DNA of 64,000 bases from Aminobacter sp. HY435 (GTDB taxonomy: Bacteria; Pseudomonadota; Alphaproteobacteria; Rhizobiales; Rhizobiaceae): contig NZ_JANKZL010000015.1 of NCBI RefSeq assembly GCF_027568395.1, forward strand, positions 1 through 64,000. Reading direction: 5' to 3'. The notes beneath the pieces are model-generated. The model was not told the origin of the DNA. It did no database searches and saw only the letters and a list, made by a program, of their open reading frames with translations. A program made the translations under genes and the position numbers. Shown here in pieces: positions 1 to 10,950 of the stretch. Position 1 is the first letter of the stretch. Every line of letters starts with the position of its first letter.

Positions 1-191
1 GCGGTGACCAGGATCAGCTTGCCGTCCTTGTTCTTGCGCGCATTGGCGATGAACTCGGCCGAGACCTTCGCCTTGTCGTGGCCGTAGGGCAAAAGATGCT
101 CGGTCGGAATGCCGATCTTGGCCCCGACCTCCTGGATCGGCTTCTTTTTCGCTCCACGCGCGATTTCGATGTCAGTCTTGAATTCGGCCAT
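1..191 (-). CDS. fhs: Formate-tetrahydrofolate ligase, N-terminal fragment (cut by window edge)
   Basis: Only the first 63 codons are inside the window; the gene runs off the left edge. The N-terminus starts [20 protein letters not shown] and continues with [16 protein letters not shown], which matches the conserved start of formate-tetrahydrofolate ligases (SDIEIA, pathway-like LxPYG, then KV/KI and a GKLILVT stretch that leads to the ATP-binding loop). The enzyme interconverts formate, ATP and THF with 10-formyl-THF. It lies 54 bp downstream of folD on the same strand, so the two probably form one unit. Next to tmm and tdm it is best placed to run towards formate, recovering ATP from demethylated C1 units; the direction is an inference. 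Confidence 0.88.
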
Positions 192-245
192 GACTCTCTT
201 CCCTTGAGTTTGGTTCGATTTCCGCGAAGCCCGAAAGCTTCCAGA

Positions 246-1139
246 TTAGAAGCGTGGCGCTGCCTGGCCGGCAGCGCGGCAGGCAGACACCACCGTATTG
301 GCCATCAGAAGCGCGATCGTCATCGGACCGACGCCGCCAGGCACCGGGGTGATGGCGCCGGCCTGTTCGGCGGCACTTGCGTAGTCGACGTCGCCGACAA
401 GCTTCGCCTTGCCGCCGGCCGTTCCGTCCAGGCGATTGATGCCGACGTCGATCACGGTGGCGCCGGGCTTGACCCAGTCGCCCTTGATCATTTCCGGGCG
501 TCCGACCGCGGCGACCAGGATGTCGGCGCTGCGGCACAGGGCCGGCAGGTCCTTGGTGCGGCTGTGAGCGACAGTGACGGTGGCGTTGGCGTTAAGCAGG
601 AGGTTGGCCATCGGCTTGCCGACGATGTTGGAGCGGCCGACGACGACAGCATTGAGGCCCGACAGGTCGCGGCCGAGCGAGCGTTCGATCAGCAGCATCG
701 AGCCGGCCGGGGTGCACGGCACGAAGGCGGTGTCGAGTTCGCCGGTGCCGAGCTTGCCGACATTGGTGAAATGGAAGCCGTCGACATCCTTGTCGGCCGA
801 GATCGTCTGGATGATCTTGCCGGCGTCGATATGGTCGGGCAGGGGCAACTGGACGAGGATGCCGTGAATCTTGGGGTCGGCGTTGAGCTTCTGTACCAGC
901 GCGACCAGATCGGCTTCCGAGGTATCGGCCGACAGCGCGTGCTCGACCGAATGAAAGCCGCATTCCTTGGCCTTCTTGCCCTTGGAAGAGACATAAACCT
1001 GGCTTGCCGGGTCGTGGCCAACGATGACCACCGCTATGCCGGGAACGACACCGGTCTCGGCGATCAGCTTTTCGGCTGCTATCCGAACCTTTGTCACCAC
1101 ATCGGCGGCAACTGCCTTGCCATCGATTACCGTCGTCAT
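246..1139 (-). CDS. folD: Bifunctional methylene-THF dehydrogenase / methenyl-THF cyclohydrolase, copy 1
   Basis: A 297-residue FolD, full length for the family. It oxidises 5,10-methylene-THF with NADP and hydrolyses the methenyl form to 10-formyl-THF in the cytosol. Visible signatures are the Tyr-x3-Lys catalytic block ([13 protein letters not shown]), the QLPLP loop, DKDVDGFH, the [13 protein letters not shown] nucleotide-binding stretch and the C-terminal [10 protein letters not shown]. The frame stays open for 47 codons upstream, but the family N-terminus ([11 protein letters not shown]) begins here. It lies upstream of fhs and downstream of an APC permease whose own terminator separates them. 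A closely similar second folD lies at 49278-50174. Its position beside tmm/tdm/fhs suggests this copy serves C1 dissimilation. Confidence 0.95.
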
Positions 1140-1360
1140 GCTCTGCCATTCCTCCCAGGCGTGCGCGTGCGATCCTATGGCATAAGCCATCGGTTCCAGC
1201 CCCGGATGCACCATCCGGACAGCTTTTTGCGCTGAATTTTCCCGTCTGAATCTATAGCAGCAGATGGGAGCGAAAGTCAACCTTAATGCAAGAATCTTTC
1301 ATGGAAAGAAATATTGGCCCAGCACTTCTTTCCGTGGGCGTACATCGCCTTGGGGCAGAC

Positions 1361-1387
1361 AAGAAAAGGCCGGCTTGCGCCGGCCTT
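1361..1387 (-). terminator. Rho-independent terminator after the APC permease
   Basis: A 9-bp GC-rich stem, AAGGCCGGC at 1366-1374 and GCCGGCCTT at 1379-1387, surrounds a 4-base loop. Read on the minus strand it is followed by a short T-rich run. It sits 25 bp past the permease stop and should separate permease transcripts from folD-fhs. Confidence 0.7.
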
Positions 1388-1412
1388 GACCCTGGGTTGT
1401 GGGTTCAGCGTG

Positions 1413-3122
1413 TCAGAGCACGAAGAACCAGTTGGCGAGCAGAACCACGGCGAGACCCGCAACCAGCGTGAGGTAGGGCAGGATTCCAGCCTTCTTCACC
1501 TTCAGGTCGCTTTGTGTCAGGCCAAGGTCCTCGAGCATGTGCTCGGGGAACTTGCCGCCGTCCTGGATGTAGTGGCGGAAGCAGAACACCGGGATGATCA
1601 GGGCCGCGGTGAACAGGCCGGCCCACAGGGCCATCGGGTTCCACACCTTGGCGCCGGCGCCCATGAAGATGGCGTTGACGTAGGCAAACAGGGCGCCGAC
1701 CGTGATCAGCCAGGTCGGAGCGCGCCACGGCCGGTTGATGTGGCCGTTGTCCATGCGGTGGATCCAGCCGGAGTTCAGGTTGAGGAAGTTGAAGATGATG
1801 TAGCCGCAGTTCGACACGGCGAGGATGAAGAAGAAGCTCGTCGCATCCGTCGAGGCGATGGCCAGGACGAAGAGGTTGGCGATCAGGTCGGTCCACATGG
1901 CGCGGGTCGGGGCGCCATGCTCGTTGACGTGGCTGAGGTAGCGCGGCAGCCAGCCGTCGACCGAACCCTGGTAAAGCGTCCGCGACGAACCCGCCATTGC
2001 CGTCATGATCGCCAGCAGCAGTGCCAGGATCATCAGCATGACAAGCAGGCTCTTGACCAGCCCGCCACCGCCGACCATGCCGGCCAGCGCGTCGGCAACA
2101 CCGGAACCGTCGACGATCGGGGTTGCCAGCATGCCGTTGAGGCCGAGCACGCCCTGGAAGGTGAAGGGCACGATCATGAACAGCAGCATGCAGAGCAGGC
2201 CGGAGTAGAAGATGGCCTTGAAGGTGTCGGTAGCCGGGTTCTTGAATTCGCGGGTGTAGCAGACCGCGGTTTCAAAGCCGTAGGTCGACCACGCCGCGAT
2301 GAACATGCCACCCAGAACCAGCGTCCAGCCGGCGACGTTCCACGCGCCGGGTTCGGGCGCGTAGGCGGCAGCCAGCGGCACGAAGGGCGAATAATTGTCC
2401 CAGTTGATCTGGCCGGTAAGGATCGGCACCACGCCGACGATCAGCAGCGGCACGATGACCAGCAGGCCGACGACTTTCTGCACGCTTGCCGTGCCGAGAA
2501 TGCCGCGATGCTGGATGGCGAAGGTAATCAGCATCAGCACCGCGCCGATCCAGAAGGTGGCGTTGAGCGAGAAGCCGACCGGGCCAAGCGAGTGGCTGTA
2601 CAGCGTCCAGGTGCGGATGCCTGGCGTTGCCGCTGCGGTCACCGCAGCAACTGCATCGGCCGCACTGGTGCCGACATTGGCCGCCAGATACTGCAACACC
2701 TCAGGCGAGGTTTCGGTGAAGCCCGGGATCGGCGCAAGCGCATTGAGGATGTATGCGGCGGCAATCGAACAGCCGAGCGACAGCACCGGCGACCAGGCGA
2801 ACCAGTTGCACCACACCGAAAGCGGCGCGACGAACTTGGAATAGCGCAGCCATGCGGTCGCGCCGTAGACCGAGGCACCGCCCGACTTGTTCGGGAACAG
2901 GCCGGCGATCTCGGCATAGGTGAAGGACTGGATGAACCCCATCAGCATGGAGAAGATCCAGATTGCGAAGGCGATGTTGCCGGCAGTGCCGGCAATGCCG
3001 CCGATGGAGAACAGGACAAGAGGCGGCACGCCGCTGGCGACCCAGAAGGCACCGCGCCAGTCGATTGTCCTGTGTAGTTGGCCGGCGGTATCCGCCGGAC
3101 TGATGTCCGTAACAGCGCTCAT
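1413..3122 (-). CDS. APC-superfamily amino acid/amine permease
   Basis: A 569-residue integral membrane protein with at least twelve hydrophobic segments. The first segments (VPPLVLFSIGGIAGTAGN, then GFIQSFTYAEIAGLFPNKSGG and ASVYGATAW) have the layout of the amino acid-polyamine-organocation family. Substrate cannot be read from sequence. It is divergent from the LuxR-type regulator at 3565 and upstream of folD-fhs and tmm-tdm. The context suggests uptake of an amine or an N-methylated amino acid, as APC permeases are found beside methylamine genes in other alphaproteobacteria. No tmoXVW-type ABC transporter is present in the window, so this could be the route of entry. Family call is secure; substrate is inference. 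Confidence 0.85.
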   Translation of the reverse strand: MSAVTDISPADTAGQLHRTIDWRGAFWVASGVPPLVLFSIGGIAGTAGNIAFAIWIFSMLMGFIQSFTYAEIAGLFPNKSGGASVYGATAWLRYSKFVAPLSVWCNWFAWSPVLSLGCSIAAAYILNALAPIPGFTETSPEVLQYLAANVGTSAADAVAAVTAAATPGIRTWTLYSHSLGPVGFSLNATFWIGAVLMLITFAIQHRGILGTASVQKVVGLLVIVPLLIVGVVPILTGQINWDNYSPFVPLAAAYAPEPGAWNVAGWTLVLGGMFIAAWSTYGFETAVCYTREFKNPATDTFKAIFYSGLLCMLLFMIVPFTFQGVLGLNGMLATPIVDGSGVADALAGMVGGGGLVKSLLVMLMILALLLAIMTAMAGSSRTLYQGSVDGWLPRYLSHVNEHGAPTRAMWTDLIANLFVLAIASTDATSFFFILAVSNCGYIIFNFLNLNSGWIHRMDNGHINRPWRAPTWLITVGALFAYVNAIFMGAGAKVWNPMALWAGLFTAALIIPVFCFRHYIQDGGKFPEHMLEDLGLTQSDLKVKKAGILPYLTLVAGLAVVLLANWFFVL

Positions 3123-3564
3123 TGGCTCAGTTCCCCATTGATTGAGAATGCCCGTCGCCCAGGCCCGGCATTTCCGGTTGTCATGGCACGGCGGCAGTTT
3201 CCGCTTAGGCTTCTTTTTTTCCTCAAGGTGAAGTTTGTCCGAATTCGAAGCGCCGTCAAGCTATTTTGTCGCAGCACTGGACCAATTTTCGCCACTGGTA
3301 CCCTCGATTGGAAAATTGGGCACGCGAAGATGTCTCTCCGGACAGCGACGACCTACCCGAATGGGTGGGAAGGCAAGCCTTGTCGCCATTTGCCGGCTTG
3401 GTGGCTCATTTCGGCAGCAAAAATGCCGCATCCACTGGAATGAAAAAATCATTCATGATATGAATTGCTTTCAAGGGGTCGGTCTCGGTCAGGACCGGAG
3501 GAGGACCGACCCAGCGCAGGAGACGTCGGCAAGAGGTGCGTGCACGAACATAGGCGGGAGGAAC
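3123..3564. other. 442-bp divergent intergenic region, permease / LuxR regulator
   Basis: No convincing gene is seen. Short open frames here lack conserved features. The stretch is less GC-rich than its neighbours, with T- and A-runs near 3208-3216 and 3440-3450, and must carry the two divergent promoters. A strong GGAGGA ribosome-binding site precedes the regulator's ATG at 3565. No clear palindrome was found. Confidence 0.6.
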
Positions 3565-4266
3565 ATGAACGCCGAGTGGAAAGGTCAGCGCCGGGGCATC
3601 GGGATCGAGGTGATGCCAACGGCCACGGAAAACAGGTTCAAGGTCTTGATTGCCGAGCGCAACCCGTTGGTGGTCGCCGCACTTGGCGACATGATCTCGC
3701 GGGACAGCCGCTTCGAACTGGTTGAGCGCGTGCAGACCGGCAAGGCCTTTCTCGATGCCGCTGCCGCGCAGCAGCCGTCATTCGATCTCGCCGTACTGGG
3801 CTGGAAGCTGTCGGACATGGACAGTGGCGAGGTGCTGGGCGAAATGCAGCGGCGCTCGCTCCACGCGCGCGTCGTGATCTTCTCCAACGACCACGACATT
3901 TCCATCCTCAAGCAATGTGTGCGGCTCGGGGTCCAGGGCTTCTGCTATCAGTTCGACGACCCGGCGATCCTGTTCGACACGCTTGTTGCCGTCGCACATG
4001 GACGCATCTGCATTCCCTATGTCGATGTTTCAAAGATCAACGACACGCCGTTGTCGCGGCTGACCACGCGCGAGCGCGAGCTGCTGGCCGTGCTCGCCGA
4101 TGGTTGGACCAACTTGCAGATCGCCGCGCGCACCGGCATTTCCGAGAACACGGTGAAGTACCACCTCAAGAATCTCTACGACAAACTCGACGTGCGCAAC
4201 CGGGCGATGGCGGTGGCGCTCTATGCCAGCGAGAAGAGCCGCGGCCCGCATCTGAGTTCGCAGTAG
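3565..4266 (+). CDS. LuxR/NarL-type response regulator with degenerate receiver domain
   Basis: A 233-residue two-domain regulator. The N-terminal half (about residues 25-145) has the receiver fold pattern (FKVLIAERNPLVVAAL, then QPSFDLAVLGWKLSDMDSGE). The C-terminal half is a LuxR DNA-binding domain (LTTRERELLAVLADGWTNLQ, then ISENTVKYHLKNLYDKLDVR). The usual phospho-acceptor Asp is replaced by Gly in AVLGWKL, and the acidic pair after the first strand reads ER instead of DD/ED. It is therefore probably not controlled by phosphorylation. The start was chosen for the GGAGGA site 3-8 bases upstream; the frame is open further upstream without a ribosome site. It is divergent from the APC permease and is a candidate regulator of it or of tmm. 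Confidence 0.87.
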   Translation: MNAEWKGQRRGIGIEVMPTATENRFKVLIAERNPLVVAALGDMISRDSRFELVERVQTGKAFLDAAAAQQPSFDLAVLGWKLSDMDSGEVLGEMQRRSLHARVVIFSNDHDISILKQCVRLGVQGFCYQFDDPAILFDTLVAVAHGRICIPYVDVSKINDTPLSRLTTRERELLAVLADGWTNLQIAARTGISENTVKYHLKNLYDKLDVRNRAMAVALYASEKSRGPHLSSQ

Positions 4267-4495
4267 GCGCGTTCCCCGCAAAGAGCCAGTCCGCCGAGGG
4301 GCGGGCGCCGGGTCGATGGACACGCTGGGCGGCCCCCTGCGGGCGTGAGACAGCTTGAAGCTGGCGACTCCCCACGTTCGGTCACCGCCTCGCCACCGCT
4401 CGTGGGGGGAGCAACCCCGGTTCGGCGAGGTCGGACAACACGGCTGGCATTTTCTTTCCCTCACGACGTGCGGGTGAGGTGGTTCGCGCAGCGAT

Positions 4496-4559
4496 CCGGT
4501 GAGGGCATTGAACCCGCGACGTCCGGTCAGCCGATCTCACCTTGAGCTACTAACCCGGC
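4496..4559 (-). pseudogene. tRNA-derived remnant (decayed)
   Basis: Read on the minus strand this has GTAGCTCA, typical of the tRNA A-box/D-arm, and GCGGGTTCAA, typical of the T-arm B-box, in the right order and roughly the right distance. Between them the anticodon arm is shortened (TCGG-CTGA-CCGGA) and leaves no normal seven-base anticodon loop. The acceptor arms do not pair over seven bases. It is therefore more likely a relic than a working tRNA. Confidence 0.45.
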
Positions 4560-4617
4560 AGCCCTCCCGCACAACCCTTCGTCGCCGCTTTGGTCGCCGT
4601 GTCGGCGTCAAAAAACA

Positions 4618-4643
4618 AACGCCGCCCCGGTCGGGGCGGCGTT
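4618..4643 (-). terminator. Rho-independent terminator after tmm
   Basis: A 12-bp stem (AACGCCGCCCCG paired with CGGGGCGGCGTT) with a tight loop. On the minus strand the stem is followed by a T-run (the A-run at 4610-4619 on the plus strand). It lies 40 bp after the tmm stop codon. Confidence 0.8.
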
Positions 4644-4683
4644 TCATGCCACGAAAGTTGGACGGTCTACGTGGTCCGCAATT

Positions 4684-6045
4684 TCACTCCGCCGCTTCGG
4701 CGGTGCTGAGGTAGGATTCGAGCGAGTCGTCGAGCGCATCCTTCCACGGCGTGTGGTGCGCAGGCGCCATCGTGCCTGTGATGACCGACCGGTAGGAGTG
4801 ATTGCGGAACTCCATGATGCCTTTCTTCTTGTGTTCCTTCCACTCGAAGAAAGCCTCGTTGGCGCCATCGACGTCAAAGCTCGGATAGTCGGTCTCGGCG
4901 ATCAGTTCCTTGACGTATTCGCCCTGGTATTCGATCGCGTCATGGGAGTCCTTGCCGGCATCCTCGCGGACAACGCGGTCCTCGACATCGGCGAGCATCT
5001 CCTGCTTGCTGGCTGGAAGCTTGATGCGGTCGAGGATGACGTCGCGCGCCCACCAGGCCTGCGCGTCGAACATGTTGAAGGTGAACCACTGGTCCTGCAT
5101 GCCGAGATAAAACAGCGCCGGATTGTGGACGTAGGCGACGCCCTTGTAGAGGTCGGCGGTCGCCAGCCGGTTGGCGGTCCTGAGACGCAGGTCGTCGGGC
5201 AGGAACGGGAAGTGGTGCTTGTAGCCGGTGCACAGGATGATCGCGTCGATACGCTTGGTCGATCCGTCCTTGAAGGTTGCGGTATTGATCTCGACCTTCT
5301 CCAGCAGCGGCCGCTCTTCCCAGTTTTGAGGCCATTTGAAGCCCATCGGCGCGGTGCGGTAGCAGTTGGTGATCGACTTGGCGCCGTACTTCCAGCACTG
5401 CGAGCCGATGTCCTCGGCCGAATAGCTGGTGCCGACGATCAGGATGTCCTTCCCGGCGAATTCGCGGGCGTCGCGGAAGTCGTGGGCGTGCAGGATGCGG
5501 CCGTTGAAACGGTCGAATCCGGGGAATTCCGGCACGTTCGGGGTCGAGAAATGGCCCGAGGCGACGATGACGTTGTCGAATTCCTCGGAGTAGCAGTGAT
5601 CCTTCGGCAGGTCCTGCACGGTGACGGTGAATTTCCTGGTCTCTTCGTTCCAGGTCACCATGCGCACGGCGGTCTCAAAGCGGATCCACTTGCGCACGCC
5701 GGCCTTGTTCACGCGGCCTTCGATGTAATCGAAGAGAACCGCGCGCGGCGGATATGAGGCGATCTGCTTGCCGAAATGCTCTTCAAAGGAATAGTCCGCG
5801 AACTCGAGACCTTCCTTGGGGCCGTTCGACCAGAGGTAGCGGTACATCGAACCATGTACCGGCTCGCCATATTGGTCGAGGCCGGTGCGCCAGGTGTAGT
5901 TCCACAGGCCGCCCCAGTTGGCCTGCTTTTCGAAGCAGACAATTTCCGGGATATCCGCGCCCTTCGCCGCGGCCGACTGGAATGCCCTCAACTGCGCCAG
6001 ACCCGACGGTCCGGCACCGATCACGGCGACACGCTTGGCTGTCAT
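4684..6045 (-). CDS. tmm: Trimethylamine monooxygenase (flavin-containing)
   Basis: A 453-residue class B flavoprotein that oxidises trimethylamine to trimethylamine N-oxide using NADPH and O2. Visible parts are the FAD-binding GAGPSG near residue 10, the [13 protein letters not shown] block, the monooxygenase signature [11 protein letters not shown], the NADPH-binding [10 protein letters not shown] near residue 200, and the long conserved tail ([20 protein letters not shown], then [13 protein letters not shown]). These blocks follow bacterial Tmm of Methylocella and roseobacters closely, not generic Baeyer-Villiger enzymes. The ATG at 6045 has a very strong AAAGGAGGAAACC leader, so the longer open frame upstream is not used. 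A palindrome overlaps this leader. Other methylated amines may also be oxidised. Confidence 0.92.
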
Positions 6046-6056
6046 GGTTTCCTCCT

Positions 6057-6072
6057 TTTGGTATAGACCAAA
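6057..6072. promoter_or_regulatory. Candidate GntR/FCD operator over the tmm leader
   Basis: A perfect inverted repeat, TTTGGT-ATAG-ACCAAA, ends 11 bp upstream of the tmm ATG. TGGT-N-ACCA palindromes are typical of FadR/FCD-type GntR operators, and a gene of that class is at 7503. A further half-site-like TATACCAA is at 6115-6122. A repressor bound here would cover the ribosome-binding region of tmm. Confidence 0.5.
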
Positions 6073-6206
6073 TTTCTTTATTGGTTCCTCTGGTTCACTT
6101 ATGTTGCCTGCCATTATACCAATTTGTCAACGATGTGTTTCCTGTGAGGAAGGAAAATTTCGCACTGTTGAGATGAAGCACCCTGTTTTTGGTGGTAATC
6201 ACGGAT

Positions 6207-7520
6207 ATGCCGAATTCCAGCTTTGCCCATCGACTCGCGGTTTCCAGCCTCCTGCCCCGGCTGTCTGTCGGCATGCCGGATGCCGTGAACATTGGATTCC
6301 TCGGACCGCTCAGCGGTCAAGTGGAGTCTTGGGGTCTGCCCGGTTTGCATGGCTGCCGCATCTGGGAGGACTGGCTGAACAGGACCGGCGGGTTGCTGAT
6401 CAGCGGGCGCCGCTATCCCATCAGGATCGTCGAGTTCGATTGCGGCTACGATGCCGGGCGGGCCGCGGAGGGTGCGCGTCATCTCATCGAACGGCATGAC
6501 GTCAAGCTGCTGATGATGCTGGGCGGCGATACGATGGCTGAGATCAGGGATTATCTGAGCCAACGCAAGGTCCTGACATCGACCCTGCTGCCAAGCGACC
6601 TGTCGCCTGATACCCCATACCTGATCGCGCCAAGTGAACTGCACCCGATCTTCAATGTGACAGGGGTGGAGTGGTTGGCGCAAGCAAGGCCGGAACTGCG
6701 CACCGTCGCGATCTGCAGCCAGACCGATGCGCTTGGCCTTCCCTCGCTTGCGACCTATCGCGCGGCCTTCAAGGCGGCGAAACTGGGGGTCGCCAAGGAG
6801 ATCCAGTACGACCCCGACACGACCGATGCGGCCGCAATCGTGCAGCCGATGCTGGAGTCGGGTGCCGACATCCTGTGCTGGTGCACCAGCTGCACGCCAA
6901 TGGTCCATGCGATGACCGAGTATGCTCATGCCCAGGGCTTCAAGGGCCAGATCATGTCCTGCACACTGGATTACTACGACCAGCTCGTCGCGCGAACATC
7001 TGTCGAATTCATGGAAGGCTTCGTCTTCCAGTTTCCGGATTTCGACGACGAGAGGCTGAACGACAAGACATTCTTCTTCAATCAGCCGAAGGGCTTCTTC
7101 GACGAGTACAACAGCCGTTTCCCCGGCACCTGGACGGCGGTGAGCTGGGAATATGTCGCCATCCTCGACATCTGGCATGCGGCGGTCGAAAAATCGAACA
7201 GCGTCAATCCCGCATCCGTGTTGGCTGCAATGAAGCAGCTTGGTCACGTCACCCATGCGTTCGGCCCGGCGCATTGGTGGGGTGAGAGTATGTTCGGGAT
7301 CGACAATGCGCTGGTCGGCGACTGGCCGGTGGTGACACTGAAAAACGGCAAGGCGAAGATTGCCGCTTTCGGCTCGATTCCCCGCTGGCTGAAACGCCAT
7401 GGCGGCTTGCTCAAGCGGGAGATGTCGGATCTGGGGCAGCTTTGGGAGCAGCGCCTGCGGGCGAGCGGGAGCGGTACCGCCCTGCAGGCACGAACGCCGG
7501 AATCAATCCTGCAGAAGTAG
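6207..7520 (+). CDS. Leu/Ile/Val-type (Peripla_BP_6) ligand-binding protein, no clear signal peptide
   Basis: About 437 residues of the type I periplasmic-binding-protein fold: an N-lobe opening with VNIGFLGPLSGQVESWGLPG, IWEDWLNRTGGLLISGRRYP, then ligand-site blocks including PSELHPIFNVTG and the unusual CWCTSCTPM. It is nearest to the amide/urea-binding branch (AmiC/UrtA-like). The N-terminus lacks an obvious secretory signal: only a short, weakly hydrophobic LAVSSLLPRL stretch is seen. No ABC permease or ATPase is nearby. It may be an orphan binding protein or a cytosolic ligand sensor like AmiC. It is divergent from tmm and overlaps the GntR gene by 18 bp tail to tail. The start is uncertain: TTG 6189, ATG 6207 or ATG 6273. 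Confidence 0.75.
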   Translation: MPNSSFAHRLAVSSLLPRLSVGMPDAVNIGFLGPLSGQVESWGLPGLHGCRIWEDWLNRTGGLLISGRRYPIRIVEFDCGYDAGRAAEGARHLIERHDVKLLMMLGGDTMAEIRDYLSQRKVLTSTLLPSDLSPDTPYLIAPSELHPIFNVTGVEWLAQARPELRTVAICSQTDALGLPSLATYRAAFKAAKLGVAKEIQYDPDTTDAAAIVQPMLESGADILCWCTSCTPMVHAMTEYAHAQGFKGQIMSCTLDYYDQLVARTSVEFMEGFVFQFPDFDDERLNDKTFFFNQPKGFFDEYNSRFPGTWTAVSWEYVAILDIWHAAVEKSNSVNPASVLAAMKQLGHVTHAFGPAHWWGESMFGIDNALVGDWPVVTLKNGKAKIAAFGSIPRWLKRHGGLLKREMSDLGQLWEQRLRASGSGTALQARTPESILQK

Positions 7521-8243
7521 CTTCTGCTCCTCGACCAGATGCAGCTTGATGAACTCGACAGCGCGCTCGACGTCGCGAGAGGCAATCGCATTGAACAGCG
7601 CGTTGTAGCGCTGCTGGTATTCGAGGATCCGCCTCGGCGACAGGTGCCGGCGCAGCTGCGTGGTGCGGAAGCTCACCCGGCAAGCCTCGATCGCCAGATT
7701 GTAGCACGATGCCAGCAAGGGATTGTGCGTTCCCTCGGCAATCTTGCGGTAGATTTCCTCTTCGCATTTGACGAAGGCGGCAACGTCGGTATGCACGCTT
7801 TCGATCTTGGACATCAGCTGTTCGAGTTCCCAGACCTCGCGCGGGGTCATGTTGACGACCGCGAGGCGAACCATTTCGGGCTCGAGGATGCCGCGCACGA
7901 CGAGATGGTCCAGTGGGCTGGTCTCCAGTGCGACCGAGCTCTCCGCCCGTTCCGGCGCTTCTTCCGAACGGTAGGTGACGAAACTGCCGCTGCCGGGACG
8001 TCGCTTGATGACCTTGCGGTCCTCCAGCACGTCCAGCGCCTCACGCACGGTATTGCGGGCGACCCCCATCTCCGAGGCCAGCGCCCGTTCCGAAGGAAGA
8101 CGCGTGTCCAGCGGGTATTCCTCCGACCTTATCTTGGCGAACAGCCGGTCGAGCACGGTCTGCACCGTCGCTCCCACCGAATAGGAGGCGATGATCTGCG
8201 ATGTGAGTTGGCCGGTTTCAACCTTCATTGCGCGACCTTGCAT
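7503..8243 (-). CDS. GntR-family regulator, FadR/FCD subfamily
   Basis: A 246-residue repressor-type protein. The winged helix (about residues 20-90) shows SEEYPLDTRLPSERALASEM, GVARNTVREALDVLEDRKVI and KRRPGSGSFV. The C-terminal FCD helical domain (about 95-240) includes RGILEPEMVRLAV and a metal/ligand-site His in EGTHNPLL. FCD regulators usually sense carboxylates or small metabolites. It sits between the binding protein (tail-to-tail overlap) and tdm (divergent), which makes it the likely regulator of this cassette. A TTTGGT-N4-ACCAAA palindrome upstream of tmm is its candidate operator. A second possible ATG at 8228 would remove five residues. Confidence 0.9.
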   Translation of the reverse strand: MQGRAMKVETGQLTSQIIASYSVGATVQTVLDRLFAKIRSEEYPLDTRLPSERALASEMGVARNTVREALDVLEDRKVIKRRPGSGSFVTYRSEEAPERAESSVALETSPLDHLVVRGILEPEMVRLAVVNMTPREVWELEQLMSKIESVHTDVAAFVKCEEEIYRKIAEGTHNPLLASCYNLAIEACRVSFRTTQLRRHLSPRRILEYQQRYNALFNAIASRDVERAVEFIKLHLVEEQKLLLQD

Positions 8244-8530
8244 ATCAGTCCTGCCTCATGGCCACGACGCCGGACGAATCCTAGCGCAGTGCAGCCCAAG
8301 TTTGAAATATTTATCGAATCTGGTCCAGTACACGGTCGAACGGGTCGGGACAATCGCTTGGCGGGCAGCTGATTTACGGTCGCTGGCCGCGCCGGGAAGC
8401 TGTCTGCCGGACGGTCAGCTCGCCTCATTTTCCGGCAATGCGACGAAACGAAGCCTTGCAGCGGCGGCAAAATGGGGTATTCTTCACACTGAAATAACTT
8501 TACACACAGGCAAATTTAGACGAGGTGGCG

Positions 8531-10897
8531 ATGACGATTTCAGTCTATCCCGAAATTGCGGCCGGCCCACCGCGTCCGAGCCTGATCCTGCAGCCTGGTC
8601 TGCTGGTGCCTGGCACGGAGCGGTATCACGTACCGGGCGCCGGTGCTGTGCTGATCGACATCGAGGCCGGCGACCGGGTGACTGTGCGCAATCTCGAAGG
8701 CGGGCAGGCGTGCGAGCTCGTCGCGTTTGATACCGCCGGCAAAGCCGATCCGGGCATTCTGGGTGCGCGCTCGAACAGCGATGCATCGGGGCTGAAGGCG
8801 CTGCTTGTCGATGGCGACGACAGCCTGCAGAAGTTCCGTGCCGGGTTGGCGCGCCGCAAGCTCGAGCTTGGCCGGGTCGAAGCGGTGCGCTTCTTCGATG
8901 GCACGACCGCTGCCGGTGTCGAGGAGAGTTTTGTCGTTGCGCGCGCCGGCTCGCTCGTTGTTGCCGCTCCTGCTGCGCCGATGGCAGTCGACAGTCAAGA
9001 CACGGCAACACCGCTGGTCGTCATGGTCAAGCGGGCCAAGGTCCGCACTGCGCCTGGCGGCTTCGATCTGCCAGACCCGCTCGCCGACCCGGTGCTCGAT
9101 CTCAGGGTCAAGTCGAAGACAGCGGAGAGCTACTTCGTCAAGGCCGGCGACTACATCCAGATCATCGATGTCGACGGCCGCCAGTGCACCGACTTCCAGT
9201 GCTTCTCTGCCCGCAAGCTCGACAAGGGCAGGGACCTCGCGCTCGACGTCACAGCTACCCGTTCGCTGATGGGCCATGCCTATCCGATGCCGGGCCTGCA
9301 TGCGAAATATTTCGACCAGGATTTCGAGCCTTTGGTCGAGGTCGTGCAGGACACCTGCGGCCGCCATGACGCGTTTGCGCTTGCTTGTTACGCCAAATAT
9401 TACGACGACATCGGTTATCCCGGCCACATCAACTGCTCGGAGAACTTCAACGGCGCGCTGACACCGCATGGGGTGAATGCCCGCGCCGGCTGGATGGCGG
9501 TCAACTTCTTCTTCAACACCGGCATCGACGCCCATGGCGTGATGTTCTCCGACGAACCCTGGTCGCGGCCGGGCGACTATGTGCTGTTGCGGGCGCTGAC
9601 CGACATCGTCTGCGTCTCCTCGGCCTGCCCTGACGATACCACTCCGGCCAATGGCTGGAACCTCACCGACATCCACGTCCGGACCTATTCCGGGCAGAAC
9701 AAGTTCCAGCGCGCGATCGCCCGACGCACGACCCCGGAGGCCGAACCCAAGATGACCCGCGAGACCGCCTTCCATTCAAGCTTCGCCAAGCACACCCGAA
9801 ACTTCATCGAATACAAGGGCTTCTGGCTGCCGCAGGAATTCGCCAAGGAGGGGCCGATCGAGGAATATTGGGCTTGCCGCCAGAAGGCGGTGGTCATGGA
9901 TCTCTCTGCCCTGCGCAAGTTCGAGGTCACCGGCCCGGATTCCGAAGCGCTGCTGCAGTACACGCTTACCCGCGACGTCAAGAAGCTCGGCGTCGGCCAG
10001 GTCGTCTACACCGCGATGTGTTACGAGCATGGCGGCATGATCGACGATGGCACGCTGCTGCGCCTCGGCAAGGACAATTTCCGCTGGATCTGCGGTGACG
10101 ACTATTCCGGCGTGTGGTTGCGCGAGGTGGCGGAAAAGCTCGGCCTCAAGGTGCTGGTGCGTTCTTCGACCGACCAGATGCACAACATCGCCGTCCAGGG
10201 TCCCAACAGCCGCGACATCCTCAAGGAGATCGTCTGGACGCCGCCGCACCAGCCGGCGCTGTCGGAGCTCGAATGGTTCCGCTTCACCATCGGCCGCATC
10301 GGCGACTCCACAGGCGTGCCGATCGTCGTTTCCCGTACCGGCTACACCGGCGAGCTCGGCTACGAGGTCTGGTGCCATCCGCGCGATGCCGAAAAGGTCT
10401 TCGACGCGGTCTGGGAGGCCGGTCAGCCGCGTGGGCTGAAGCCGATGGGCTTTGCTGCGCTCGACATGGTGCGCATCGAGGCAGGCCTGATCTTCGCCAA
10501 TTATGAGTTCTCCGACCAGACCGATCCGTTCGAGGCAGGCATCGGCTTCACCGTGCCGCTGAAGACCAAGACCGACGACTTCATCGGCCGCGAGGCACTG
10601 ATAAGGCGCAAGGACAACCCGATCCACAAGCTTGTCGGCCTCGACATCGACGCCAATGTCGCCGTCGGCCATGGCGACTGCGTCCATATCGGCCGCGCCC
10701 AGATCGGTGTCGTCACCTCTTCGATGCGCTCGCCGGTGTTGGGCAAGAACATCGCGCTCGCCCGTGTCGACGCAACGCATGCCAATATCGGCACCGAGGT
10801 CGAGGTCGGCAAGCTCGACGGCCAGCAGAAGCGCCTGCCGGCCAAGATCGTTGCCTTCGCTCACTACGATCCGAAGAAGGAACGCCCGAGGTCGTAA
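8531..10897 (+). CDS. tdm: TMAO demethylase-like protein: DUF1989 plus GcvT-type folate-binding domains
   Basis: A 788-residue fusion. Residues 20-400 carry DUF1989-type sequence, apparently in two copies: AGDRVTVRNLEGGQACELVA near 45 and AGDYIQIIDVDGRQCTDFQC near 205. The second copy has Cys/His-rich blocks DTCGRHD and NCSENF that could hold metal. Residues 407-788 are an aminomethyltransferase-like (GcvT_N and C) domain, with GYTGELGYEVW and RIEAGLIF. This architecture is that of Tdm, which splits TMAO into dimethylamine and formaldehyde, the GcvT half binding THF. Location near tmm, folD and fhs supports the call. The ATG at 8531 has GAGG six bases upstream; a GTG two codons earlier is possible. 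Other DUF1989-GcvT fusions exist, so substrate is inferred. Confidence 0.85.
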   Translation: MTISVYPEIAAGPPRPSLILQPGLLVPGTERYHVPGAGAVLIDIEAGDRVTVRNLEGGQACELVAFDTAGKADPGILGARSNSDASGLKALLVDGDDSLQKFRAGLARRKLELGRVEAVRFFDGTTAAGVEESFVVARAGSLVVAAPAAPMAVDSQDTATPLVVMVKRAKVRTAPGGFDLPDPLADPVLDLRVKSKTAESYFVKAGDYIQIIDVDGRQCTDFQCFSARKLDKGRDLALDVTATRSLMGHAYPMPGLHAKYFDQDFEPLVEVVQDTCGRHDAFALACYAKYYDDIGYPGHINCSENFNGALTPHGVNARAGWMAVNFFFNTGIDAHGVMFSDEPWSRPGDYVLLRALTDIVCVSSACPDDTTPANGWNLTDIHVRTYSGQNKFQRAIARRTTPEAEPKMTRETAFHSSFAKHTRNFIEYKGFWLPQEFAKEGPIEEYWACRQKAVVMDLSALRKFEVTGPDSEALLQYTLTRDVKKLGVGQVVYTAMCYEHGGMIDDGTLLRLGKDNFRWICGDDYSGVWLREVAEKLGLKVLVRSSTDQMHNIAVQGPNSRDILKEIVWTPPHQPALSELEWFRFTIGRIGDSTGVPIVVSRTGYTGELGYEVWCHPRDAEKVFDAVWEAGQPRGLKPMGFAALDMVRIEAGLIFANYEFSDQTDPFEAGIGFTVPLKTKTDDFIGREALIRRKDNPIHKLVGLDIDANVAVGHGDCVHIGRAQIGVVTSSMRSPVLGKNIALARVDATHANIGTEVEVGKLDGQQKRLPAKIVAFAHYDPKKERPRS

Positions 10898-10924
10898 ATC
10901 GCCGGCCCGTTCAACCTGTCGCAC

Positions 10925-10950
10925 AAGCCCCCGGTTTCCGGGGGCTTTTT
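10925..10950 (+). terminator. Rho-independent terminator after tdm
   Basis: A 10-bp stem, AAGCCCCCGG and CCGGGGGCTT, with a TTT loop and a following T-run, 27 bp after the tdm stop codon. It closes the methylated-amine block on the right. Confidence 0.85.

Follow-up and report, generated by a model that had tools for sequence, protein, structure and literature searches.

The flux from trimethylamine (TMA) through TMAO to DMA is established knowledge, and a TMA/TMAO island with the genes tmm, tdm, tmoP and dmm is described for Methylocella silvestris and Aminobacter. According to passages of a 2021 paper, tmm, tmd, tmoP and dmmDABC were already catalogued in Aminobacter (PMC8235418), and tmoP is named as the TMAO permease in a passage of PMC5520151 and credited as such to Zhu et al. 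2014 in one of PMC4543880. Control of tmm is described for Ruegeria pomeroyi (TmoR/TmaR), in which tmm is repressed by TmoR; in passages of that 2026 study, the TmoR gene is placed near tmm, "usually separated by a gene of unknown function", DMA and TMAO are assigned as TmoR effectors from mutants, and the DNA assays reported are of the TmoR DNA-binding domain only, ligand binding not being among them (PMC13390433).

The trimethylamine island of the window and its left flank

The window analyzed here is a stretch of 64,000 nucleotides from Aminobacter sp. HY435, the same genus as in the passages of the 2021 description, and its cassette comprises the following features:

1..191, minus strand: fhs fragment (formate-tetrahydrofolate ligase), N-terminal 63 codons (PF01268 positions 1-60, E 2.3e-13)
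246..1139, minus strand: folD, methylene-THF dehydrogenase/cyclohydrolase (NF010785, 481.5 bits, cut-off 396)
1413..3122, minus strand: tmoP, TMAO permease of the APC family (NF053774 equivalog, 891 bits, cut-off 690)
3565..4266, plus strand: LuxR-type regulator with a degenerate receiver, divergent from tmoP (PF00196, PF00072)
4684..6045, minus strand: tmm, trimethylamine monooxygenase (NF058570 equivalog, 845 bits, cut-off 675; 829 bits to PDB 5iq4)
6058..6071, no strand: palindrome TTGGTATAGACCAA immediately upstream of the ribosome-binding site of tmm, putative TmoR operator (TGGTN4ACCA pattern)
6207..7520, plus strand: signal-less solute-binding protein (SBP), Peripla_BP_6, candidate cytoplasmic sensor (PF13458; tail 6207-6275)
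7503..8243, minus strand: tmoR-like GntR/FCD repressor gene (PF00392, PF07729), its 3' end overlapping the SBP 3' end
8525..10897, plus strand: tdm, TMAO demethylase, DUF1989-GCV_T-GCV_T_C (NF053776 equivalog, 1266 bits, cut-off 1100; 1216 bits to PDB 9q59); an ATG start is possible at 8531

Pfam and NCBIfam matches of the cassette genes were far above chance, and Tmm, Tdm and TmoP all exceeded the curated NCBIfam equivalog cut-offs. The region is near certainly the known Methylocella/Aminobacter-type island, sharing its enzymes and permease by curated models, on which the enzyme names rest. No substantive enzyme difference was found, while the regulators and the signal-less SBP go unmentioned in the passages of that description. 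Tmm would convert TMA to TMAO, which TmoP would take up; Tdm would split TMAO into DMA and a C1 unit on THF, to be handled by FolD and Fhs, and dmm, a very probable continuation of the cassette, would convert DMA to MMA.

The novelty that a first-pass annotation had claimed for the cassette is mostly not upheld, its enzymes and permease being the described set. Within the Tmm-Tdm-FolD-Fhs chain that it placed in 11 kb, the metabolic chain stands by family matches, but Fhs is incomplete, only the 63-codon fragment being present because the window begins at a contig end (base 1 of contig C5). Four contig ends (C5, C23, C24 and C29) each carry a piece of fhs. At the end of C24, dmmD-, DmmA-, reductase- and HODM-like genes lie downstream of the fhs C-terminus in fitting orientation, and fhs and dmmD are contiguous in three relatives (G001, G002 and G007); therefore, the cassette very probably continues leftward into dmm. 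C29 was rejected as the leftward continuation: none of the ORFs in its last 12.7 kb was recognised as a methylamine gene, as opposed to dmm at C24.

Regulators and the putative operator

Both regulators had been placed outside the described set. This holds for the LuxR-type gene, absent from the passages of the descriptions consulted, but not for the GntR/FCD gene, which is probably orthologous to the gene for TmoR, described in the literature as repressor of tmm. Its product is 64% identical to that of the gene in the same position in Ruegeria atlantica (L108), and, as in R. pomeroyi, the gene lies one gene away from tmm, both in the window and in 69/80 loci with the order tmm-SBP-tmoR. These loci are the best 80 of 443 relatives and include five from Aminobacter, of which at least two (L054 and L055) match contigs of genomes also found among the 201 relatives considered below. 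Compared with the R. pomeroyi description, the intervening gene is here identified as a signal-less SBP tied to TmoR. By analogy with R. pomeroyi, the TmoR-like protein would repress tmm in Aminobacter.

The canonical FCD metal site consists of an Asp and three His. In the TmoR-like protein of the window, the metal-ligand columns (taken from an alignment to 2di3) are instead occupied by E161, Y165, Y213 and H235. The same columns across 71 TmoR rows held Glu in 71/71, Tyr in 70, Tyr/Phe in 71 and His in 70; the alignment had 72 rows, L069, truncated by an early in-frame stop, giving no FCD residues; L084, with a match to the C-terminal third only (80 residues), was left out. The full ligand set was found in none of 71 + 8 TmoR-like proteins, yet one histidine lost in the window is still present in 4/8 plasmid TmoR-like proteins. 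Among other FCD proteins of the same genome (14 controls, L148 being left out as unreadable), the two middle His were kept in 12 and 13 of the 13 readable sequences.

The palindrome follows TmoR. TGGTN4ACCA was perfect in 54 of 75 tmm-SBP intergenic regions, versus a mean of 0.3 in mono- and dinucleotide shuffles, and occurred in 0/25 tmm promoters of genomes without TmoR. Where tmoR lies beside tmm and the SBP elsewhere, it was perfect before tmm in 4/4 loci and was not found before the unlinked SBP; nor was it found before the SBP in Paracoccus aminovorans plasmid IV (3 mismatches) or Ponticoccus (2 mismatches). TTGGTN4ACCAA is probably the site of TmoR repression of tmm, a putative assignment.

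The canonical receiver carries an acidic pair, a phospho-acceptor and a Lys. In 7/7 Aminobacter copies of the LuxR-type protein, ER stands in place of the acidic pair, VLGW in the phospho-acceptor region and YQF in the region where the Lys is usually found, in agreement with the degenerate receiver noted at first pass. Among the best 80 of 443 loci, only the 5 from Aminobacter carry the gene, apart from a partial match (49%) in L096.

The signal-less binding protein and its association with TmoR

In 80/80 loci (best 80 of 443), the SBP has a conserved N-terminal tail and lacks the twin-arginine (RR) motif by which an export signal was judged, as against an RR (Tat) motif in 30/30 sisters ~50% identical to it; judged by this motif, the export signal of ABC substrate-binding proteins is missing from the whole signal-less set. 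The tail spans ~23 residues, with F6 and P17 invariant in 81/81 sequences, S5 in 80 and G22 in 79, and its conservation is 0.70 versus 0.79 for the body. In hydropathy, tails and Tat signals overlap, with maxima over 14 residues of 0.27-1.36 and 1.04-1.97, respectively. After QxWxQ, the C-terminal extra residues most often numbered 18 in the signal-less form versus 2 in the sisters, and the mature parts of the two split on one branch (97/94) in a tree built from alternate rows of the 80 signal-less sequences and the 28/30 sisters longer than 360 residues.

The sisters are Liv/Urt-type ABC substrate-binding proteins (L045, L061-L063, L067 and others), in which the mature domain is ~50% identical to the SBP; unlike it, they have Tat signals, and BPD_transp_2 permease genes adjoin them in the two loci examined. 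In the window, no permease or ATPase genes adjoin the SBP. A model-based fold search returned mainly transport proteins as neighbours, with AmiC (1qnl) at rank 46. In AmiC/AmiR of Pseudomonas aeruginosa, a binding-protein sensor is coupled to an ANTAR antiterminator. Like AmiC, the SBP is predicted to have a type I binding-protein fold without an export signal, and ligand sensing for a regulator is proposed for it; the partner AmiR is, however, an ANTAR antiterminator, whereas the constant companion of the SBP is a GntR/FCD repressor.

The SBP and TmoR occur together and are absent together. Among 37 tmm-bearing relatives, 13 had both, 24 neither and none just one; over the 201 relatives, all 13 TmoR genomes carried the signal-less form, and the 24 tmm genomes without TmoR carried none, 9 of the 13 being Aminobacter, so that these counts lean on relatives. 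Of the genomes with the signal-less form, all 79 that could be tested had a TmoR match (in one case a partial match only), including 8 in which tmoR was non-adjacent; one 84%-complete draft (G129) had the signal-less form without a TmoR match. One Aminobacter genome (G009) lacks the SBP, TmoR and the putative operator and keeps luxR, no SBP being found between tmm and tdm, nor genome-wide at E 1e-40. The two proteins also diverge in parallel, with correlations of distances of r 0.77 for SBP-TmoR and 0.49 for SBP-Tmm, and a partial correlation of 0.72.

The SBP was adjacent and divergent to tmm in 74/80 loci (best 80 of 443). In L082, L087, L091 and L100, the signal-less gene adjoins an exported sister and not tmm, and four loci have the SBP away from tmm and without the palindrome, TmoR still being present. 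At a locus without tmm annotated nearby, the SBP is paired with a 38%-identical FCD gene. In the G358 family (12 genomes only), one genome has a cluster of tmm, a 72% SBP and TmoR. TmoR is absent from three further tmm-bearing genomes, of which two carry a 51-52% SBP unsorted by signal. Among 289 class genomes, SBP matches were found in 13, of which 11 were 43-52% identical and likewise unsorted by signal. Plasmid matches numbered 17, of which 10 were examined; among these, the match from Rhizobium NZLR1 (39%) lies with permease and ATPase genes and has no FCD gene annotated near.

A candidate cytoplasmic sensor and the alternatives

We propose, with a probability of about 0.5, that the SBP senses a ligand in the cytoplasm and acts through TmoR. 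Its lineage is sister to Tat-exported ABC substrate-binding proteins; since the twin-arginine signal is missing and the ~23-residue tail is conserved, the SBP would be expected to remain cytoplasmic. Its ligand would be a methylated amine, DMA or TMAO, the two effectors assigned to TmoR from mutants, and the SBP would act either by freeing TmoR from the operator or by keeping it bound; location, ligand, physical contact with TmoR and direction of effect are what we infer. The chance appears roughly even that the pair represents a widespread two-protein repressor, in which an exported lineage became a cytoplasmic sensor giving ligand control to a GntR/FCD repressor with a decayed metal site. 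No description of an SBP sensor paired with such a repressor was found among the open-licence literature matches listed. If true, the initial reaction of aerobic trimethylamine degradation would be under the control of this pair in roseobacters, Paracoccus, Aminobacter and Ensifer, the "gene of unknown function" that separates tmm from tmoR would be explained, and the pair would have been re-used at a non-TMA locus in P. aminovorans; a gene annotated as a transporter part would then regulate tmm, with which aerobic TMA oxidation begins.

It is possible, although rather unlikely, that a cytoplasmic SBP, instead of being the sensor of TmoR, buffers or carries a ligand or assists Tmm, and merely shares the regulon and inheritance of TmoR. 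The divergent arrangement with tmm, with the palindrome in the common promoter region, is consistent with this role; against it, the signal-less form is absent from the 24 tmm genomes without TmoR, its divergence tracks TmoR more than Tmm, and TmoR accompanies it at the four loci away from tmm and the palindrome. More doubtful is an ordinary transport binding protein that is exported although it lacks a recognised signal, and that works with a distant permease. The fold, the identity to exported sisters and the annotation as "ABC transporter substrate-binding protein" in 16/17 plasmid records (the other being unannotated) point in that direction, and the signal-less genes beside an exported sister would also fit it; yet the RR motif is missing throughout, the tail is conserved although unlike a signal, no permease genes adjoin the SBP in the window, and it stays with TmoR even where unlinked. 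On present evidence, the orphan binding protein, initially listed as a transport-type gene, is not an uptake gene.

Compared with the sensor acting through TmoR, an AmiC/AmiR-like pair would have the SBP control the LuxR-type protein. Both genes lie within the Aminobacter cluster, and AmiR has an unphosphorylated receiver-like domain; however, luxR was found in 5 Aminobacter loci and one partial match of 80, the SBP in all 80, and G009 retains luxR with no SBP found at E 1e-40. As luxR does not track the SBP, an AmiR-like role is largely refuted by distribution and very improbable. That the cassette is a new, terrestrial form of the pathway in which uptake is non-standard, as first suggested, is hardly tenable. 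No tmoXVW-like (ProX/V/W-like ABC importer) genes were seen in the cluster ORFs of the window or the 12.7 kb probable left flank, as that version would have it, and the one ABC importer examined in this flank has an SBP_bac_3 binding protein. The APC permease, considered as a new uptake route and rejected, is nevertheless the known TmoP by its curated model, already reported for Aminobacter in passages of PMC8235418, and the related tmm-SBP-tmoR loci come mostly from marine Rhodobacterales (best 80 of 443). Judging by sequence matches, TmoP also occurs outside soil bacteria: in two Roseovarius genomes (L172 and L176), partial tmoP matches (67%) were detected ~6 kb away from tmm, at the margin of the stretches examined.

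A known trimethylamine cassette

The window covers the initial 64 kb of contig C5; the genome amounts to 4.6 Mb in 29 contigs. The genes listed in the first-pass annotation were found in it, except that fhs is cut down to 63 codons by the end of the contig. The features considered here are:

1413-3122, minus strand, tmoP, TMAO permease gene
3565-4266, plus strand, LuxR-type gene
4684-6045, minus strand, tmm, trimethylamine monooxygenase gene
6058-6071, window copy of a palindrome, putative TmoR operator, TTGGTATAGACCAA
6207-7520, plus strand, solute-binding protein (SBP) gene
7503-8243, minus strand, GntR/FCD gene, tmoR-like
8525-10897, plus strand, tdm, TMAO demethylase gene

Tmm, Tdm and the APC permease each scored above the cut-off of the curated NCBIfam equivalog for their function (trimethylamine monooxygenase, TMAO demethylase and TMAO permease, respectively); Tmm was close to the solved flavin monooxygenase 5iq4 (829 bits), and Tdm to 9q59, an entry that bears the name trimethylamine N-oxide demethylase (1216 bits). 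Non-standard uptake through an APC permease, as previously proposed, could not be maintained, since this protein scored above the TMAO permease cut-off and is therefore TmoP, which PMC5520151 gives as a TMAO permease and PMC4543880 attributes to Zhu et al. 2014. Nor is this a new terrestrial or rhizobial variant: the pathway is known, and the available part of the 2021 genus paper (PMC8235418) already lists tmm, tmd, tmoP and dmmDABC of Aminobacter. The cassette is a known pathway, one that earlier work had described for this genus, and its interest lies in an SBP without twin-arginine (Tat) signal ("signal-less") and the tie of this protein to TmoR.

The same gene set was recovered in relatives: genomes G001 and G002 each carry tdm-gntR-SBP-tmm-luxR-tmoP-folD-fhs-dmmD on a single contig, and G007 shows this order from a cut tdm onwards, with further dmm genes. 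Pieces of fhs, two N-terminal and two C-terminal, lie at four contig ends (window 1-191 and the ends of L008, L009 and L010); the genome has two fhs copies, where the assembly is broken, and both C-terminal pieces had identical scores. At the end of contig C24, dmmD-, DmmA-, reductase- and HODM-like genes lie downstream of an fhs C-terminus in fitting orientation, and C24 likely joins C5, the fhs fragment continuing into the dmm side.

Some Aminobacter genomes carry a tandem tmoP pair (L037, L038, L039, L149), the second copy being 79-83% identical to that of the window, and L034 has a single tmoP with an adjoining 43-residue remnant (L034:15506-15634). Next after tdm comes a bestrophin-like gene (PF14023, 11015-11758), which has kept this place in the Aminobacter relatives whose sequence was followed to this point (76-79% identity). 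The LuxR-type gene, divergent from tmoP, may regulate it; its distribution does not track the SBP. In the luxR-tmm gap, the minus strand at about 4490-4590 looks tRNA-like by eye, with a GGTTCAA motif; ARAGORN reported no tRNA there, and the stretch is possibly a remnant.

The signal-less binding protein

The SBP matched PF13458 and no NCBIfam family; its gene is divergent from tmm and shares 18 bases at its 3' end with the end of the GntR/FCD gene. Two kinds of relatives were seen, about 50% identical to each other: exported forms with RRxFL-type Tat signals, and signal-less forms starting with a tail of the type (M)xxSSFAHRLAVSSALPRLSVGM. The start codon is uncertain, because the residue aligned with it had no matched Met in 7 of the best 80 of 443 relatives. 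The RR motif, scored by sequence motif, occurred in 0/80 signal-less sequences (best 80 of 443) versus 30/30 exported sisters; hydropathy maxima over 14 residues overlapped (0.27-1.36 in signal-less tails, 1.04-1.97 in the sisters' signals). An ungapped alignment matched the tail to the last part of the signal region in the exported forms (L072: FPRLSVGMNEPVKIGF versus LPSIALAAGETVKIGF), which suggests a former signal peptide. Within it, F6 and P17 were invariant in 81/81 sequences, S5 was kept in 80 and G22 in 79; mean majority frequency was 0.70 in the tail versus 0.79 in the body. In a tree of mature parts, one branch (support 97/94) split 45 signal-less from 36 exported rows, and the window SBP clustered with A. 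ciceronei and A. carboxidus. Structure modelling predicted a type I binding-protein fold (mean pLDDT 86) with low-confidence tail residues 1-19; Foldseek ranked UrtA and other transport proteins on top and AmiC (1qnl) 46th.

Association with TmoR

The SBP occurs together with TmoR. In Ruegeria pomeroyi, TmoR is a tmm repressor encoded near tmm and "usually separated by a gene of unknown function" (PMC13390433), and the window GntR/FCD gene occupies the place given for TmoR in that paper. From its gene numbering and the R. atlantica locus L108, we infer that SPO1552 of R. pomeroyi is a signal-less SBP gene. The order tmm, SBP, tmoR was found in 69 of 80 named loci (best 80 of 443); in the remaining 11, the SBP adjoined only tmm (5), only tmoR (2) or neither (4). 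Of the adjacent tmoR copies, that of L084 matched over the last 80 residues only, and that of L069 carries a stop near the start. For the nine loci lacking an adjacent tmoR, a 59-70% TmoR was present elsewhere in the genome in all eight searched (all but L129), 2 kb away in L071; L089 was covered by this search in addition.

Among 201 related genomes, tmm was detected in 37, TmoR in 13 (E up to 1e-35) and an SBP match in 19, of which 14 were sorted as signal-less by their tail. These 14 included all 13 TmoR genomes; the remaining one, G129, is a draft of 84% completeness with no TmoR or tmm match. None of the 24 genomes with tmm and without TmoR had a signal-less SBP, and three of them (G116, G180, G197) had an exported sister. 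Since nine of the 13 TmoR genomes belong to one genus, independent lineages number about five. In the Aminobacter genome G009, tmm (97%) and luxR are present, SBP, TmoR and palindrome are all missing, and tmm and tdm directly face each other.

SBP divergence follows TmoR rather than Tmm: across the 69 loci with all three, pairwise-distance correlations were 0.77 (SBP-TmoR), 0.49 (SBP-Tmm) and 0.40 (TmoR-Tmm), and the partial SBP-TmoR correlation given Tmm was 0.72. Sinorhizobium L058 and Ensifer L060 share 87-89% identity with the window in SBP and TmoR, versus 71-76% in Tmm and 57-65% in Tdm. In eight of ten plasmid records examined, the SBP was divergent from a 75-79% identical Tmm, and an FCD or GntR gene directly followed it in seven of these eight (two genes intervene in Thioclava).

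A putative operator and the possible role of the SBP

The palindrome TGGTN4ACCA was perfect in 54 of 75 tmm-SBP intergenic regions, versus means of 0.3 and 0.275 (maximum 1) after mononucleotide and dinucleotide shuffling, respectively. Among 25 tmm promoters of the 24 TmoR-less genomes it was perfect in none and had one mismatch in one. Four loci with tmoR beside tmm and the SBP elsewhere all had a perfect copy before tmm, and the 250 bases before their unlinked SBP (L082, L087, L091, L100) held only matches with 2-3 mismatches. More distant TmoR genomes had weak copies (one mismatch in L045 and L048/L178, two in L046); before the eight plasmid SBPs, mismatches numbered 0 in three, 1 in three, 2 in one and 3 in one. 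The palindrome thus goes with TmoR, and so does the SBP, even in loci where it is not under the palindrome, which favours a partner of TmoR over a mere member of its regulon.

Canonical FCD domains bind metal through one Asp and three His. At these positions, located by alignment to 2di3, 71 TmoR sequences including that of the window had Glu (71), Tyr (70), Tyr/Phe (71) and His (70). Of the other FCD proteins encoded in the genome, 13 were readable, and the two middle His were kept in 12 and 13 of them. In the eight plasmid FCD proteins examined, the first position was Glu in all 8, and the second, third and fourth were His in 4, 2 and 1, respectively; none had a complete set. These residues are consistent with a site no longer kept for metal, and would also be compatible with sensing by other means.

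We give about even odds that the SBP is a ligand sensor acting on TmoR. A cytoplasmic SBP would bind DMA or TMAO and would alter the hold of TmoR on the tmm operator, perhaps via the tails; it could act as a co-repressor in the ligand-free state or as an anti-repressor in the ligand-bound state. Such a tie would be a new variant of an idea known from AmiC.

Plasmid IV of P. aminovorans JCM7685 (L184:5986-8018) carries a signal-less SBP gene that overlaps an FCD gene of 38% identity; the annotation shows no tmm for about 6 kb around, and this pair may have been re-used for another pathway. Its neighbours are an NCS1 symporter gene and a gene of the Asp/Glu racemase family. The tenth plasmid record, Rhizobium NZLR1, has a 39% SBP relative adjoining transporter genes. 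In genome G163, tmm and tmoR are separated by about 90 kb from a 52% signal-less relative, which adjoins a GGDEF/EAL gene and one whose product has no Pfam match (L047:10021-11301 and 8245-9825). Of the 80 named loci (best 80 of 443), 30 encode a Tat-exported relative no more than 10 kb away from the signal-less gene (e.g. L045:5617-8950, L061:4848-6107, L067:12596-13801), beside Liv-type permease genes in both loci examined (L045, L082); together these are a possible unstudied importer for methylated amines.
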